A stretch of 64,000 bases of DNA from Acidobacteriota bacterium (GTDB taxonomy: Bacteria > Acidobacteriota > Terriglobia > Terriglobales > Acidobacteriaceae), in NCBI GenBank assembly GCA_003225175.1, contig QIBA01000046.1, forward strand, positions 1 through 64,000, read 5' to 3'. The notes under the pieces are model-generated. The model did not search any database. It was not told the origin of the DNA and saw only the letters and a program-made list of their open reading frames with translations. The position numbers were made by a program, and so were the translations under genes. This document shows positions 31,733-43,929 of the stretch, in pieces; positions within the stretch are counted from its first letter, which is position 1, and each line of letters begins with the position of its first letter.

Positions 31733-31822
31733 TGGCGGAGGGAGAGGGATTCGAACCCCCGATACCCTTTCGGGTATAGCGGTTTTCAAGACCGCCTGTT
31801 TCAACCGCTCACACATCCCTCC
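31733..31822 (-). tRNA. tRNA-Ser (anticodon UGA)
   Basis: Read on the minus strand from 31822, a 7-bp acceptor stem (GGAGGGA with TCCCTCC), a D arm, an anticodon loop CTTGAAA with anticodon TGA, a long class II variable arm (TACCCGAAAGGGTA) and a TTCGAAT loop can be drawn. The 3' CCA is encoded (31733-31735). The variable arm and anticodon identify serine. Length is 90 bases including CCA. Confidence 0.97.
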
Positions 31823-39543: not shown

Positions 39544-40638
39544 ATGACGCGCGCCTTTGCTCGCCGCCTCCTGAAGGTTTTTGCGATTCTTGCTGGCTTG
39601 CTTCCGCTGTTGGCCTTCTCAACCATGGCTTTTGGACAAGGCTGCGTCGCGGCGCATACGGAACAGCCGCTGATTTCTGGTCTGGACCCGACAAATCAGC
39701 AGCAGACCTTTCATGGACGCGACTGGGCAGACAGACTTCACAATTTGACGATAAGCGTCGGATTCCGCACTTACAGCTCTTATGCGCACTACATTGGAAC
39801 GGATTACCAAGTGCGTCGCGCCATCCTGCACAATCAGGTGCAGAATCACGTCAATCTGTACGATCTTTCCTTCAATTACCAGTTCAGTCCGCGGTTCAGC
39901 ATCATCGGCGACATTCCCGCTATGACCGGGACACGCCATCAGCAGGGCAACGTAAACGTCTCTCGCGTGGGCGGCATTGGCGACATATTTCTGGGCGTGC
40001 AGGGGTGGGTATTTCGTCCGCCGACAGAGAGTCACGGCAACGTAGCTATCTCTGCATCTCTCAAATTACCCACCGGCATCAACGATGCACAAGGGACCAC
40101 GATTCTTTCCAACGGCACAACGCAGCTTCGGAATTTCGATCAATCCCTTCAGCCTGGCGATGGAAGTTGGGGATTCACGCTGGCGACACAGGCATATCGC
40201 CAAACCTATTTCCATACAATGCTCTACTTCACCGGCTCGTGGCTGTTTAATCCACGCGACACCAATGGCGTGAAGACATTCCGCAGCGCTCCGCACGAAG
40301 ACGTTATGTCGGTGAGCGATCAATACTTGTGGCGTGGAGGTTTTTCGCACAATGTGCCGAAGCTTCGCTATTTAGCGCTTAGTCTCGGCGGAAGGATGGA
40401 AGGAGTTCCGGTGCGCGATGCATTCGGAGCCAGCAATGGTTTCCGGCGTCCGGGATATGTGATTTCGATTGAGCCGGGCCTGGCGCTTTCATACCGGAAC
40501 AATTCGTTAAACGTAAGCGCTCCCTGGGCGATGGAGAGAAATCGCAAGATCAGCACCTCCGATATCCAGAACCACACGCACGGAGATGCTGCCTTCGCCG
40601 ACTACACAATCATTGCCAGCTACTCACGTCATTTCTAG
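39544..40638 (+). CDS. Outer-membrane beta-barrel protein, unknown transport role
   Basis: This encodes 364 residues with signal peptide (RRLLKVFAILAGLLPLLAFSTMAFGQ). The mature protein is made of alternating amphipathic strands (LTISVGFRTYSSYAHYIG, NLYDLSFNYQFSPRFSIIGDIPAMTG, GNVAISASLKLPTG, GWGF-like SWGFTLATQAYRQTYFHTMLYFTGSWLF) and ends in TIIASYSRHF, a C-terminal aromatic typical of barrels. It resembles MetA-pathway/DUF3187-type or channel-forming transporters. Its 3' end overlaps the convergent receiver-Fis gene by 29 bases. Confidence 0.75.
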   Translation: MTRAFARRLLKVFAILAGLLPLLAFSTMAFGQGCVAAHTEQPLISGLDPTNQQQTFHGRDWADRLHNLTISVGFRTYSSYAHYIGTDYQVRRAILHNQVQNHVNLYDLSFNYQFSPRFSIIGDIPAMTGTRHQQGNVNVSRVGGIGDIFLGVQGWVFRPPTESHGNVAISASLKLPTGINDAQGTTILSNGTTQLRNFDQSLQPGDGSWGFTLATQAYRQTYFHTMLYFTGSWLFNPRDTNGVKTFRSAPHEDVMSVSDQYLWRGGFSHNVPKLRYLALSLGGRMEGVPVRDAFGASNGFRRPGYVISIEPGLALSYRNNSLNVSAPWAMERNRKISTSDIQNHTHGDAAFADYTIIASYSRHF

Positions 40639-41200
40639 GAGAGCCGCGACGCGCAGGTCCTTTGCGCTTGCGGGAGTAACTTCCGTATTGCCGCAGTTTG
40701 CGGTACAGCGTGGTTTTGCCGATCGAGAGCAGGCGGGCAGCTTTGACCTTGTCTCCTTCCGCCTGCGCCATGGCGTCTTCGATGGCTCGCCGCTCCAGCT
40801 GTTCTAATGTGGGAATCGACGGCTGGAATTTTAGAGATCTATCCAGTGCCTGCTCGATCGATTTCTGCAGCGCCTGCACATCCAGGGGCTTCTCGAGATA
40901 ATCGAAAAATCCAGCTTTGATCGCGCGAACGGCCGCTGCGGTGCTGGCTTTTTCTTGCAATAGGATGACTTCAATTCTGGCGGATTTAGCCTTGATTTGC
41001 GGAAGCAGGTCCGGAGGATCTGAAATCGTATTCGCATCCAGGAGTGCGACGGAAAATTCGCCACGCTGAATCATCGAAAGAGCAGAATCGCGGCCGGATA
41101 CAACAGCCAACTCGCAATGCAAATTTTCAGCGAGATCGCGGCAGAGCGTTCGAGTCCGTTCATCGGAGTCAGCAAGTAAGAGCTCGGGTTTGCGTTCCAC
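40610..41200 (-). CDS. Receiver plus Fis-type HTH regulator, no AAA+ domain
   Basis: This encodes 196 residues. The receiver domain has LLLADSDERT, phospho-Asp in VALLDANT and Lys in FDYLEKPLD. The C-terminal Fis HTH is LEQLERRAIEDAMAQAEGDKVKAARLLSIGKTTLYRKLRQYG. It has no central ATPase, so it is of the PrrA/RegA/ActR class rather than sigma54 activators. No sensor kinase is adjacent. It faces away from the giant RNA element that starts about 340 bases upstream. Confidence 0.88.
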   Translation of the reverse strand: MERKPELLLADSDERTRTLCRDLAENLHCELAVVSGRDSALSMIQRGEFSVALLDANTISDPPDLLPQIKAKSARIEVILLQEKASTAAAVRAIKAGFFDYLEKPLDVQALQKSIEQALDRSLKFQPSIPTLEQLERRAIEDAMAQAEGDKVKAARLLSIGKTTLYRKLRQYGSYSRKRKGPARRGSPRNDVSSWQ

Positions 41201-41539
41201 GTGTTGGCTTCGTCCCGGATAAGCTTCGCGCCGCGCGCGGAGGAGTCTAGAAAATAGCTAGCTATCATCGCGTGGATTGAAGGGTTCTCTGCTTCGAAGG
41301 CAAGTTTGTTCGGAAAACCGTACAAAGAACATTTCCGGGAACTTGGGCCCCATTTCCGCACAGCTTAGAGTGCAATATCGAGGCGTAATATCGCCAAGAT
41401 CGCACACTAAGCTGTGCAGAAATTCTCGCGCTCACGCCTTTTCCACCCGACTCCACAAGACGGACTACTTTTAAACAGGAAACCCACAAAATCGGATCGT
41501 ATTTCCCTTGCTCCCATCTGCGAAAGGAGTAAATTCCCT
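41201..41539. promoter_or_regulatory. Divergent spacer before the giant RNA, with a long dyad
   Basis: No gene. An 11-bp dyad gcacagcttag (41358-41368) pairs with ctaagctgtgc (41407-41417), and GTGC/GCAC extend it after one mismatch. The roughly 60-base hairpin contains an inner ggcg/cgcc hairpin. Candidate -10 boxes are weak: tatcat at 41263-41268 and tacttt near 41466. The region should hold promoters of both the regulator (minus) and the RNA (plus); neither is firmly placed. Confidence 0.5.
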
Positions 41540-43056
41540 AACACGCGAGCGTGAGATGTCCTGAATCGCTCGAGCCTGAGTTTCAAAGTTGAGATCTCCG
41601 TCAGGGGATGGAAGTTTGAAACAGTCGGTTGAGGCCCGCAGTTTCGTCGGAGAGGAACAGGCCGTAAGGTCGGTTCTGACGCGAGACGGAGCCGAGAGTT
41701 TCAATCGAGCAAGGACTGGTCGCAAACAACGAAAGTTGGAAAGCGATCGGTTGCTGAAATCGAAGATGCAGATGGGTCAGCAAACGGCGGCAGCGAGAGC
41801 TGTCAGCGGGTGCAAGGAATCAGGCGGCGAATAACCGCTTGAGACCGGAAGCCAACGGAATCGCATTGCAGGCGCAGTTCAAAAGACTGCGAACACAACG
41901 CTAGGAAAGTCGAAGGCGCAAGTTTTCGATATCCGAAAGTTCCGGCAGGCTGAGAGCGGGTTGAGGCTTCGCGGCTTCAGCCTGCGAGAACAAGGCGGCG
42001 TAAGTCGGCGAGTTCGTCAGCTTGGAAGCATGAGGATCGGCGAAAGCTGAGCTTCATGTGGGAAAGCGCTAGAGGGCAACCGAAGTGCATTCCTCAAAGA
42101 TTCTGCAGGCGTAAGAGATCAGCACTGTGAAAGGAAGCGTTGAATTAGGCGCAAGCTCAATTCAAGACTTCTGCATCACAGCCAGGTTGCCGGTGCTGTC
42201 GGCGTAAGTGCGACGGCAGGTTGCAATAGTGCTGGAAACAGTCATTGCAACAGATTCGATGTTCCCGAAAGGGAACACGCGAGTAGCAGCCCGCAAGGGC
42301 GAGTTGCATGAGCAGATTGCGGAAGCGTTCTGCTGATCACGGCAATCAAATCGCAACCCAGCGCATGGCGTAAGTCAAAGCGGGTTTTGCGGTTGTCAGT
42401 CGGCCGAAGGCATCCCGGCGCGCCCGGGACGAGGGCGGCGATTGATGACGGCTTCGCCGAAACTGAATCCAGGTTCGCCTGGAATCGGAAATTCAGGGAC
42501 GAAGCTGTTCGAGAAGTCCAAGCATGAGGAACCATTTGGCGTGAGTCGAGTGCGGAATCATGCAGGCAAAAGCCCGGTTGACCTGAACAGCGTGGCGCAA
42601 GTCACGACGGACAATCGGCGAAAGACCAACTGTGATGCTGGGTGAGCGAAAGCTCATCTGCAATCCAGATGGCTTGCAAGACTGGGCGTCCTTCGGCGGC
42701 GAAAGCTGCTGGACAGATAGGCCAGCCTAGAGACCACAGAACACCGGAGATGAAAGTCTTCGGATCGTCTGTGGCCCTATCTCAAACCCGAGAGGGTGAG
42801 GGATAACAAAGAGCAGCAATCGGTGGACGGCCTGTCGAAATCAGGCAACAGGCTTCGCTCCTCGGGCACTCGCAGGAAGACGTCGCAAGGCGGGTTCCAG
42901 CGTAAAGCTTCCGGTAACGGAAGGGGGCACGATGGGTGACAAATTCACCAGATTGTGTGAGCAGCCGGTTTTGGCAACAGAGTCGGCCAGTTCCAAAGAG
43001 GACATCTCACCACCTTCCACGGCCTGCATTCGCAAGAATGCAGGCCGTGATTGTTT
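41540..43056 (+). ncRNA. Giant structured non-coding RNA candidate, about 1.5 kb
   Basis: No frame gives a plausible protein. By eye at least 15 hairpins close with GNRA tetraloops on the + strand, at 41727-41738, 41789-41804, 41909-41930, 42029-42057, 42140-42165, 42260-42277, 42289-42300, 42311-42334, 42591-42606, 42641-42658, 42694-42711, 42744-42763 (inside 42734-42774), 42786-42797, 42908-42923 and 43018-43049. Loops without GNRA include ttcg at 42468-42483. A perfect 12-bp helix (gtgagatgtcct with aggacatctcac) joins 41551-41562 to 42999-43010, enclosing 1,436 nt. Other paired parts are 41580-41587/41615-41622, 41945-41953/41977-41985 and 42221-42227/42244-42250. GGCGNRAG recurs 11 times. 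The 5' end is uncertain (41,450-41,550). It is comparable in style to OLE, GOLLD and ROOL but not identifiable as any. Confidence 0.85.
43018..43056 (+). terminator. Terminal hairpin of the giant RNA
   Basis: cacggcctgcattc and gaatgcaggccgtg form a perfect 14-bp stem with loop gcaa, followed by attgttt. It comes eight bases after the 3' strand of the closing helix. The T-run is interrupted, so termination may be partial or the hairpin may be a protective 3' cap. Confidence 0.7.
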
Positions 43057-43497
43057 AAGAACAGCAATAAGCGATTAGCAATTAGCAATTAGCCAAAGCG
43101 CTGAAGCTGAGCACTTTGTTTCAAATTGGGATTCCCGACCTGCAGGCGAACACCCGGCCGCGGGTGGCCGCCAGGTTCTGAGTGTTTCGAGGAACTTTGG
43201 GATGGACGCGCGGTTTCGCGCGATTTCTGCATTGATGTCGAGCCTCAATTGGCCGAATGCCGACAGCCGAGGCTGTGATTGTTTAAGGGCAGCAATAAGC
43301 GATTAGCAATAAGCAATTGGCCAAAGCGCTGAAGCTGAGCACTTTGTTTCAAAATGGGATTCTCGACCTGCAGGCGAACACCCGGCCGCGGGTGGCCGCA
43401 GGTTCTGAGTGTTTCGAGGAACTTTGGGATGGACGCGCGGTTTCGCGCGATTTCTCATTGATGTCGAGCTCAATTGGCCGAATGCCGACAGCCGAGC
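43047..43497. repeat. Tandem duplication of a 228-bp unit
   Basis: Unit 1 (43047-43274) and unit 2 (43275-43497) both begin gtgattgtttaag and run through gcaataagcgattagcaa, ccaaagcgctgaagctgagc, the cacccggccgcgggtggccg hairpin, gttctgagtgtttcgagg and aattggccgaatgccgacag. They are about 95% identical. The unit starts exactly at the tail of the giant RNA terminal hairpin. It ends 33 bases before the S4 gene. No ORF is shared. A GC palindrome in each unit resembles the REP-like family at 18719. Confidence 0.9.
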
Positions 43498-43530
43498 GCC
43501 GACTGCCTGTTCCACGCGCTAGACTCTACG

Positions 43531-43929
43531 ATGACAACCATGACCGGCGTTCGCATCGACAAATGGCTGTGGGCTGCTCGATTCTTCAAGACACGTTCTC
43601 TGGCTACTCGCGCCTGTGAACTTGGTAGGATTGAATCCCACGGCCAGGCAGTTAAACCTGCCCGAGAGGTGCACGTAGGCGACTTACTACAGATTCGAAC
43701 CGAGGGTGGCCAGTTTCAGGTAAGGGTTCAGGATCTCAGCGAGGTTCGGGGCCCTGCATCGGTGGCTCAGACCCTGTATCGCGAAACAGAGGCAAGCCGC
43801 GAGCTTCGCGCGAAGTTTGCCGAAGAACAAAAAGCTATGAGAGGCTTTACTACAGCGCCTTCAACTCGACCATCGAAGCGGGATCGCCGAAGAATCGTTC
43901 AGTTCAGATCGCAACGCGAGAGCGGCTAG
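43531..43929 (+). CDS. S4-domain RNA-binding protein (Hsp15-like)
   Basis: This encodes 132 residues from the ATG at 43531 (or 43540). The S4 domain is at about 5-70: VRIDKWLWAARFFKTRSLATRACELGRIESHGQAVKPAREVHVGDLLQI. The tail is basic (STRPSKRDRRRIVQF). This is the HslR/Hsp15 type, which binds 50S subunits carrying stalled nascent chains. It lies in the same direction as the giant RNA and is an RNA-binding protein, but the link is only positional. Confidence 0.88.
   Translation: MTTMTGVRIDKWLWAARFFKTRSLATRACELGRIESHGQAVKPAREVHVGDLLQIRTEGGQFQVRVQDLSEVRGPASVAQTLYRETEASRELRAKFAEEQKAMRGFTTAPSTRPSKRDRRRIVQFRSQRESG

Follow-up and report, generated by a model that had tools for sequence, protein, structure and literature searches.

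In the window, i.e. the whole 64,000-nucleotide stretch of DNA that was analysed, a region of about 2.3 kb separates a minus-strand ORF coding for a receiver-Fis regulator (40610-41200), with the Pfam domains Response_reg and HTH_8, from an ORF coding for an S4 protein (from 43474) and, as previously proposed, contains no plausible gene. Specifically, ORFs of at least 60 aa are present in this region, some of them at similar places in some homologues, and the longest open register shared by five aligned sequences amounts to 32 codons on the + strand and 31 codons on the - strand, in line with the earlier claim that no frame codes for a plausible protein. Both of these shared registers sit in the well-conserved 3' end of the element described below; no excess of third-codon substitutions appears in these open stretches, and not every length change is a multiple of three.

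The element itself is a predicted RNA gene on the + strand, whose body (41540-43015) measures about 1,476 nt in the window and from 1,286 nt (in G028) to 1,500 nt (in G003) across seven full-length copies. The limits first assigned to it, 41540 and 43056, fit the comparative data: an invariant 5' block begins at position 41543, a terminator-like hairpin extends to 43049, and its tail reaches approximately 43056. The RNA region is purine-rich on the + strand, the flanks less so. Between the regulator gene and the RNA promoter, the window also carries an inverted repeat (41351-41424, GCACAGCTTAGAGTGC ... GCACACTAAGCTGTGC), which yielded a chance match to mir-2063 in the Rfam scan.

The original prediction listed at least 15 GNRA-capped hairpins, all in + orientation, and this proved to be an undercount. 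When every GNRA loop closed by a stem of 4 bp or more was counted, the + strand of 41540-43056 had 22 such hairpins and the minus strand had none; 500 dinucleotide shuffles averaged 1.73 (sd 1.31) and never exceeded 6. The seven full-length copies each have 16 to 22 GNRA hairpins on the + strand and none on the other. A UUCG loop, proposed as a further ornament, is indeed present at 42474, and 6 of the 10 pairs of its helix covary; the number of such loops, on the other hand, is at chance level (1 vs 0.46).

A comparable asymmetry was observed in the folding energies. The + strand of the window reaches a minimum free energy of -694 kcal/mol (z -13.8, 20 shuffles), and the z values across the seven full-length copies range from -10 to -22 (10 shuffles each), while the minus strand, at -547 kcal/mol, differs little from the average of -549 obtained by shuffling the + strand. 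In addition, non-Watson-Crick cells were tallied in a five-sequence alignment, only at pairs with at least three Watson-Crick pairs out of five: G-U combinations occur 164 times vs 40 for A-C, the remaining mismatches being A-G (39), C-U (15), C-C (12), G-G (12), A-A (9) and U-U (7). This excess of G-U over A-C, which the folding program itself partly favours, points to the + strand as the RNA strand. The alignment of the reverse complements gave -791 kcal/mol and 110 compensatory pairs out of 471, almost as many as the + strand; since paired sequence covaries on either strand, the strand was assigned from the energy, the GNRA loops and the G-U pairs.

Homologues and covariation of the predicted helices

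Homologues were found in all six genomes of the genus (that of the window, in one copy, and G001 to G005). In the family as a whole, 10 of the 200 genomes sampled carry the element, belonging to 3 of 79 genera: the six just mentioned, G012, and three genomes of one further genus (G028, G128 and G164), the last two with partial copies at contig ends, limited to the 5' end in G128 and to the 3' end in G164. Contigs break inside the RNA in 3 of the 10 carriers (G001: L021 and L022; G128: L023; G164: L024), which perhaps reflects an effect of assembly or a middle domain that varies between strains.

A covariance model (R1) built on the stretch 42722-42930 (+ strand) recovered 8 of the 200 family genomes at E<1e-55, these eight being its building set. 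Four further family loci were weakly matched (L050-L053, E 0.001-0.03), and a fifth (L054) at E 0.06. L050-L053 were rejected as copies: by a count applied to these four loci, they contain 0-3 hairpin-like motifs per 500 nt on the strand given, and nothing else in them resembles the RNA. The model detected one of five genomes in the genus of G028, only the window's own genome among 396 genomes of the phylum, and only this genome and G028 among 319 of the class. The samples were drawn evenly from larger groups (family 200, 398 and 160; class 299 and 319; phylum 396), and covariance-model searches over 40 genomes ran with stricter filters.

Searches by exact sequence gave a similar picture. A 22-mer of the 5' block was found, among about 85,000 species genomes, on five contigs titled as Acidobacteria or Acidobacteriales MAGs; these are equal in length to the carrier contigs of G001, G003, G028, G012 and G128 and so add no copies. 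No match was obtained in 50,697 phage records or 72,556 plasmid records, nor in viral contigs searched with three exact patterns. Matches to a pattern with two mismatches in G052 and G503 were discarded as chance hits, no other motifs of the RNA being found nearby. We also scanned for hidden diverged copies 30 loci of a DUF6526 gene, which adjoins the RNA in some carriers and is present in 70 of 160 family genomes. A cluster of hairpins emerged only in G028 (18 per 1,200 nt, on the minus strand of the locus, where its RNA lies); the other 29 loci show at most 4, and two of them, L068 (G012) and L082 (G128), hold just the start of the known copies. The range of the RNA is thus narrow, as far as sampled.

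To assess the structure, the five full-length genus sequences of the window, G004, G005, G002 and G003 were used. The copy of G001 was left out, being split over two contigs that were not joined, as were G028 and G012, whose middle domains align unsafely with those of the genus, and G128 and G164, in which one end only is present. Alignments A1 and A2 add the 3' part of G001, G028 and G012. Significance was judged from column shuffles and from slid controls, with seven full-length copies in all.

The RNAalifold consensus of the five sequences reaches -1012.5 kcal/mol vs -627 (sd 13) in 20 column shuffles, and compensatory changes occur at 125 of its 532 pairs vs 51 (sd 8) in the same shuffles. 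The same procedure applied to a flanking thioredoxin-like coding gene (four sequences) gave z values of -0.4 and -0.1 for the two strands, i.e. no excess. When the fold was instead derived from the window sequence only, 137 of 182 double changes in the other four sequences (75%) kept a standard pair, compared to 33-39% when the partners were slid by 1-3 columns. By taking each of the five sequences as the reference in turn, 67-75% of double changes kept the pair vs 24-50% in the slid controls. Outside the genus, G028 and G012, which are 63% identical, were compared with each other, and 60 of 83 and 57 of 89 double changes were pair-keeping (64-72%) vs 33-47% slid.

The conserved 3' core could be followed across three genera. 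In alignment A2 (eight sequences), 38 of its 128 pairs are changed on both sides, vs 19.2 (sd 3.1) in shuffled and 8-18 in slid controls, with a structure derived from the same alignment; 92.3% of the cells are paired. The covariation sought among homologous regions is strong in three tests and, in addition, present in the 3' core of three genera.

Ends and internal architecture of the RNA

The consensus comprises 56 helices of at least 3 bp, a total that includes the terminator hairpin and a helix within the promoter region, and 23 of its 31 hairpin loops are of the GNRA type in the window sequence. At the 5' end lies a near-invariant block, ACGCGAGCGTGaGATGTCCTGAATCGCTCGAGCCTG (41543-41578, + strand), of which positions 41543-41553 and 41562-41578 are identical in all seven full-length copies. 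Within this block, pairing by eye identifies a local hairpin, CGAGCG/CGCUCG, whose loop contains GAUGUCC. The block also holds an invariant 8-nt palindrome, GCUCGAGC, which is a possible candidate for a site of self-contact.

A predicted closing helix of 13 bp joins positions 41551-41563 to positions 42998-43010 (the AGGACAUCUCAC region), both on the + strand. In the five sequences, 2 of its 65 cells are unpaired and no compensatory change occurs: its pairs hardly vary, and the helix is thus conserved but without proof by covariation, as is the 5' hairpin. The pairing GAUGUCC/GGACAUC of the closing helix is retained in G028 and G012. Since the GAUGUCC of the 5' loop can pair with the GGACAUC of the 3' side, the RNA would be closed by a predicted pseudoknot across 1.45 kb. 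A candidate pairing between 5' CGCUC and 3' GAGCG, present in the five-sequence consensus, is weakened because the window, G004 and G001 have GAGCA on the 3' side.

Between these ends, the MAFFT alignment separates variable 5' and middle domains, which change in length (41580-42567, + strand; 36 helices of at least 3 bp and, in the window sequence, 20 hairpin loops, 14 of them GNRA), from the 3' core (42618-43012, + strand), which encloses the stretch modelled in R1. The 3' core is marked by the motifs AAGACCAACUG, CCUAGAGAC, CCUAUC..CCCGAGAGGG..GG.UAA..AAAGAGC and CCGGURACGGARGGGGGC. Within the genus, unpaired positions are not more conserved than paired ones (0.50 vs 0.53), so nothing in these values points to a tertiary core under tight constraint beyond the 5' block and the 3' core.

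This architecture bears on the idea of a regulator that acts in trans by binding. In this view the repeated GNRA hairpins would be binding sites, and the RNA would be a multi-hairpin decoy or sponge that captures an RNA-binding protein, or else would associate with the ribosome or RNA polymerase. Short hairpins that resemble one another are indeed numerous in the RNA, several of them reading GGCGYAAGYC, and its stand-alone gene, with a promoter-like block and a terminator-like hairpin of its own, would suit such a function. A decoy, however, should hardly need long-range helices, a near-invariant 5' block or a 3' core, all of which are present here, and we consider this explanation unlikely.

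The same two conserved parts could alternatively house the active site of a ribozyme or of a ligand-binding catalytic RNA. The 5' block and the 3' core stand out from the remainder by much stronger conservation, the closing helix would join them, and the ornate style of the RNA recalls that of catalytic RNAs. Against this, no ribozyme, intron, RNase P or rRNA of Rfam matched at E<=5 and a substrate is not evident, which makes a catalytic function quite improbable.

Upstream of the body, a promoter-like block consists of TTGCTC (41508-41513), a spacer of 16 nt and TAAATT (41530-41535), on the + strand, with a predicted start at about 41540. Inspection by eye of nine 5' flanks revealed TTGnnC in eight of them (TTGAAG in G128), and the 16-nt spacer followed by TA(A/C/G)ATT in all nine. 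Downstream, the intrinsic-terminator-like hairpin (43018-43056, + strand) has 14 bp, a GCAA loop and an ATTGTTT tail, and a G+C-rich hairpin with a T-rich tail is seen by eye in all nine 3' flanks inspected (the six of the genus, G028, G164 and G012), the tail being weakest in the window, G001 and G003. A strict sigma-70 scan returned no site (0.8 in shuffles), and the four sites of the terminator scan are not above shuffles (3.3, sd 1.9). As both scans performed no better than shuffles, the support for the promoter-like and terminator-like elements comes from conservation. The same promoter-like block, invariant 5' end and terminator-like hairpin recur in three genera and contexts, so the element looks like a stand-alone gene.

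Starting inside the terminator-like hairpin, a segment of about 187 bp is repeated in the window (43042-43455) with a spacing of 227-228, identity being 95% over 130 nt and 100% over the next 57 nt; short repeats of the AATTAGC/AATAAGC type lie near its head.

The promoter-like block is preceded by a further element (41438-41507, + strand), recognised by eye in the 5' flanks, in which TTTTCCAC..TCCACAA (41439-41458) is followed by ACAGG and CACAA blocks. Its first part is recognisable in all nine 5' flanks, being changed in G005 (TTATCCAC), G003 (TTTCCGC) and G128 (longer gap); by eye, the ACAGG/CACA blocks are found in eight flanks and absent from G012. The pattern TTTTCCACN{2,8}TCCACAA occurs once per genome in four of five genomes searched, always at this promoter, and not at all in G005. 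The element is a possible candidate for an activator site.

We take the TTTTCCAC/TCCACAA element to resemble paired DnaA boxes and, together with the DnaB gene that adjoins the RNA in one context, this could speak for an element working at the DNA level, such as a replication origin, an attachment site or a single-stranded DNA structure. On the other hand, all five genomes checked have dnaA on a different contig (these being drafts, in which separate contigs set no distance), and the G-U excess and the GNRA loops occur on one strand only. A function at the DNA level is therefore extremely improbable.

Gene contexts and comparison with known RNAs

The RNA lies in three gene contexts, for which the Pfam names of the neighbours were taken from one member each. 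In the window, in G004 and in G001 (on two contigs), it is placed between the receiver-Fis and the S4 genes. In G005 and G003, and in part in G002, a gene for a DUF4142-type protein lies downstream, at 256 bp from the RNA in G005, 306 bp in G003 and 2.3 kb in G002, which has two upstream genes in common with the first context; a relative of the DUF4142-type gene is located 7.5 kb upstream in the window. In G028 and G012, and at the contig ends of G128 and G164, DUF6526 is upstream and DnaB downstream, with one extra ORF between DUF6526 and the RNA in G012.

The adjoining genes thus differ between lineages, in line with the view that no protein partner is obvious. Because these neighbours are not shared between lineages, synteny gives no support to S4 or receiver-Fis as a partner and, as no protein adjoins the RNA throughout, neither regulation in cis nor a partner protein encoded next to it is likely. 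In particular, a cis-acting leader or a 3' UTR of an adjacent gene might be suggested by the genes adjoining on both sides; the three contexts (receiver-Fis and S4; DUF4142; DUF6526 and DnaB) and the terminator-like hairpin that follows the RNA in nine flanks argue against it, and we regard it as very improbable.

To compare the element with known RNAs, we ran cmscan with Rfam 15 on the window (gathering threshold), on 41200-43540 (E<=5) and on eight homologous loci (E<=0.5). Within the region, no match reached the gathering threshold, and the relaxed search returned two chance matches (E 2.1 and 3.5). Only chance matches, far below the cut-offs, were obtained for the element and its homologues (mir-2063, GlsR27, tfoR). 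The covariance models of OLE, GOLLD and ROOL did not match in the cmscan of the window region. Together with the covariation, the lack of an Rfam match supports the original proposal of a large structured RNA, perhaps of a new class. Of the outcomes named beforehand as counter-evidence, none that can be checked by computation was observed.

The same scan bears on a degenerate group I or II intron, or a retroelement. The RNA is large and multi-domain, and GUGAG or GUGCG in its 5' block resembles the GUGYG with which group II introns start. However, no catalytic core of a group I or II intron was matched in Rfam at E<=5 in 41200-43540; no conserved ORF for an intron-encoded protein exists inside the RNA, and no such protein, reverse transcriptase or maturase is found among eight neighbouring proteins scanned against Pfam. 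Moreover, the RNA has an intergenic position, a promoter-like block and a terminator-like hairpin of its own, and a single copy in the window's genome. All this renders an intron origin highly improbable.

Apart from those of the ribosome and of introns, few large structured RNAs exist, and for most of them the function has yet to be solved. The Acidobacteriota RNA combines extensive covarying structure with a non-coding stretch longer than 500 nt, as large ornate structured ncRNAs do. The raiA motif RNA is smaller than this. According to Kretsch et al. 2025 (PMC12286853), OLE, ROOL and GOLLD form homo-oligomers, ROOL being an 8-chain nanocage; prophages and phages encode both ROOL and GOLLD, many of the GOLLD RNAs are longer than 800 nt, the OLE proteins include OapA, and HEARO, of 343 nt, serves with the raiA motif as a structured bacterial comparator. 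OLE is described in PMC12054373 as an RNA of about 600 nt, mostly from Bacillota.

Like GOLLD, the Acidobacteriota RNA is a very large, many-helix bacterial RNA of unknown function, but at 1.29-1.50 kb it is considerably longer than GOLLD, ROOL and OLE (a length of about 1.5 kb being roughly 1.8 times the 800-nt GOLLD mark), and it comes without a phage or viral-contig match and without a tRNA in 10 homologous loci. With ROOL it shares a large and ornate build and, likely, a pseudoknot; ROOL, however, is a phage- or prophage-encoded nanocage, and its model has no match in the window region. OLE is likewise large and ornate but, unlike the RNA described here, of about 600 nt and associated with proteins, while the latter has neither a constant protein neighbour nor a match to the OLE model. 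The raiA motif and HEARO differ in size, both being smaller, and their models do not match. Among open-licence papers retrieved for Acidobacteria or Acidobacteriota and large or novel RNA, no title or opening of an abstract describes this RNA. We judge that it represents a new class among the large ornate RNAs, similar in style to OLE, GOLLD and ROOL but unrelated to them by the tests made.

Proposed nature of the RNA

Comparison of the copies establishes, at the sequence level, the existence of homologues, the covariation of the predicted helices, the strand, the conservation of the boundaries and the independence from neighbouring genes. We are close to certain that these features mark a real class of structured RNA, and a stand-alone gene acting in trans is very probable.

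Specifically, the element would be an ncRNA gene of approximately 1.29-1.50 kb with its own conserved promoter-like region and terminator-like hairpin, present in three genera of one Acidobacteriota family and presumably transcribed as a single RNA. Its ends would probably be joined by the long-range helix formed with the loop of the 5' hairpin, with more than 50 helices predicted between them and GNRA tetraloops capping most of the hairpins. Such loops commonly dock into helices, and docking of this kind may give the RNA a compact tertiary structure. Acting in trans, it could serve as an RNA particle or scaffold and might, like OLE, GOLLD and ROOL, be a homo-oligomer.

The picture of a transcribed, compact particle or scaffold draws on the size, the GNRA loops, the closed ends and the precedent of OLE, ROOL and GOLLD, and its action in trans also on the lack of a constant neighbour. 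By analogy with these RNAs, we put forward a particle or scaffold tentatively, at slightly less than an even chance, and hold with the same reserve the explanation as a whole, in which a stand-alone ncRNA gene with closed ends would yield such a trans-acting product. That an RNA of about 1.5 kb might self-assemble into a protein-free particle, outside any phage or plasmid context found and in a phylum for which the literature retrieved reports no such RNA, appears doubtful.

The RNA sits in ordinary-looking chromosomal neighbourhoods rather than in phages, with clear conserved ends and well-supported covariation, and it offers a test of how general RNA-only assemblies are in bacteria, as opposed to being peculiar to the RNAs in which they are known. 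A phage, prophage or tRNA-island setting like that of GOLLD and ROOL was not seen in the searched records and the 10 homologous loci. In PHROGs, two of nine window neighbours (the receiver-Fis regulator and a protein of 452 aa) have matches, all of them to families of unknown function. The nearest tRNA in the searched part of the window is a tRNA-Ser (anticodon TGA; 31733-31822, minus strand), which is also the sole Rfam match of the window at the gathering threshold.
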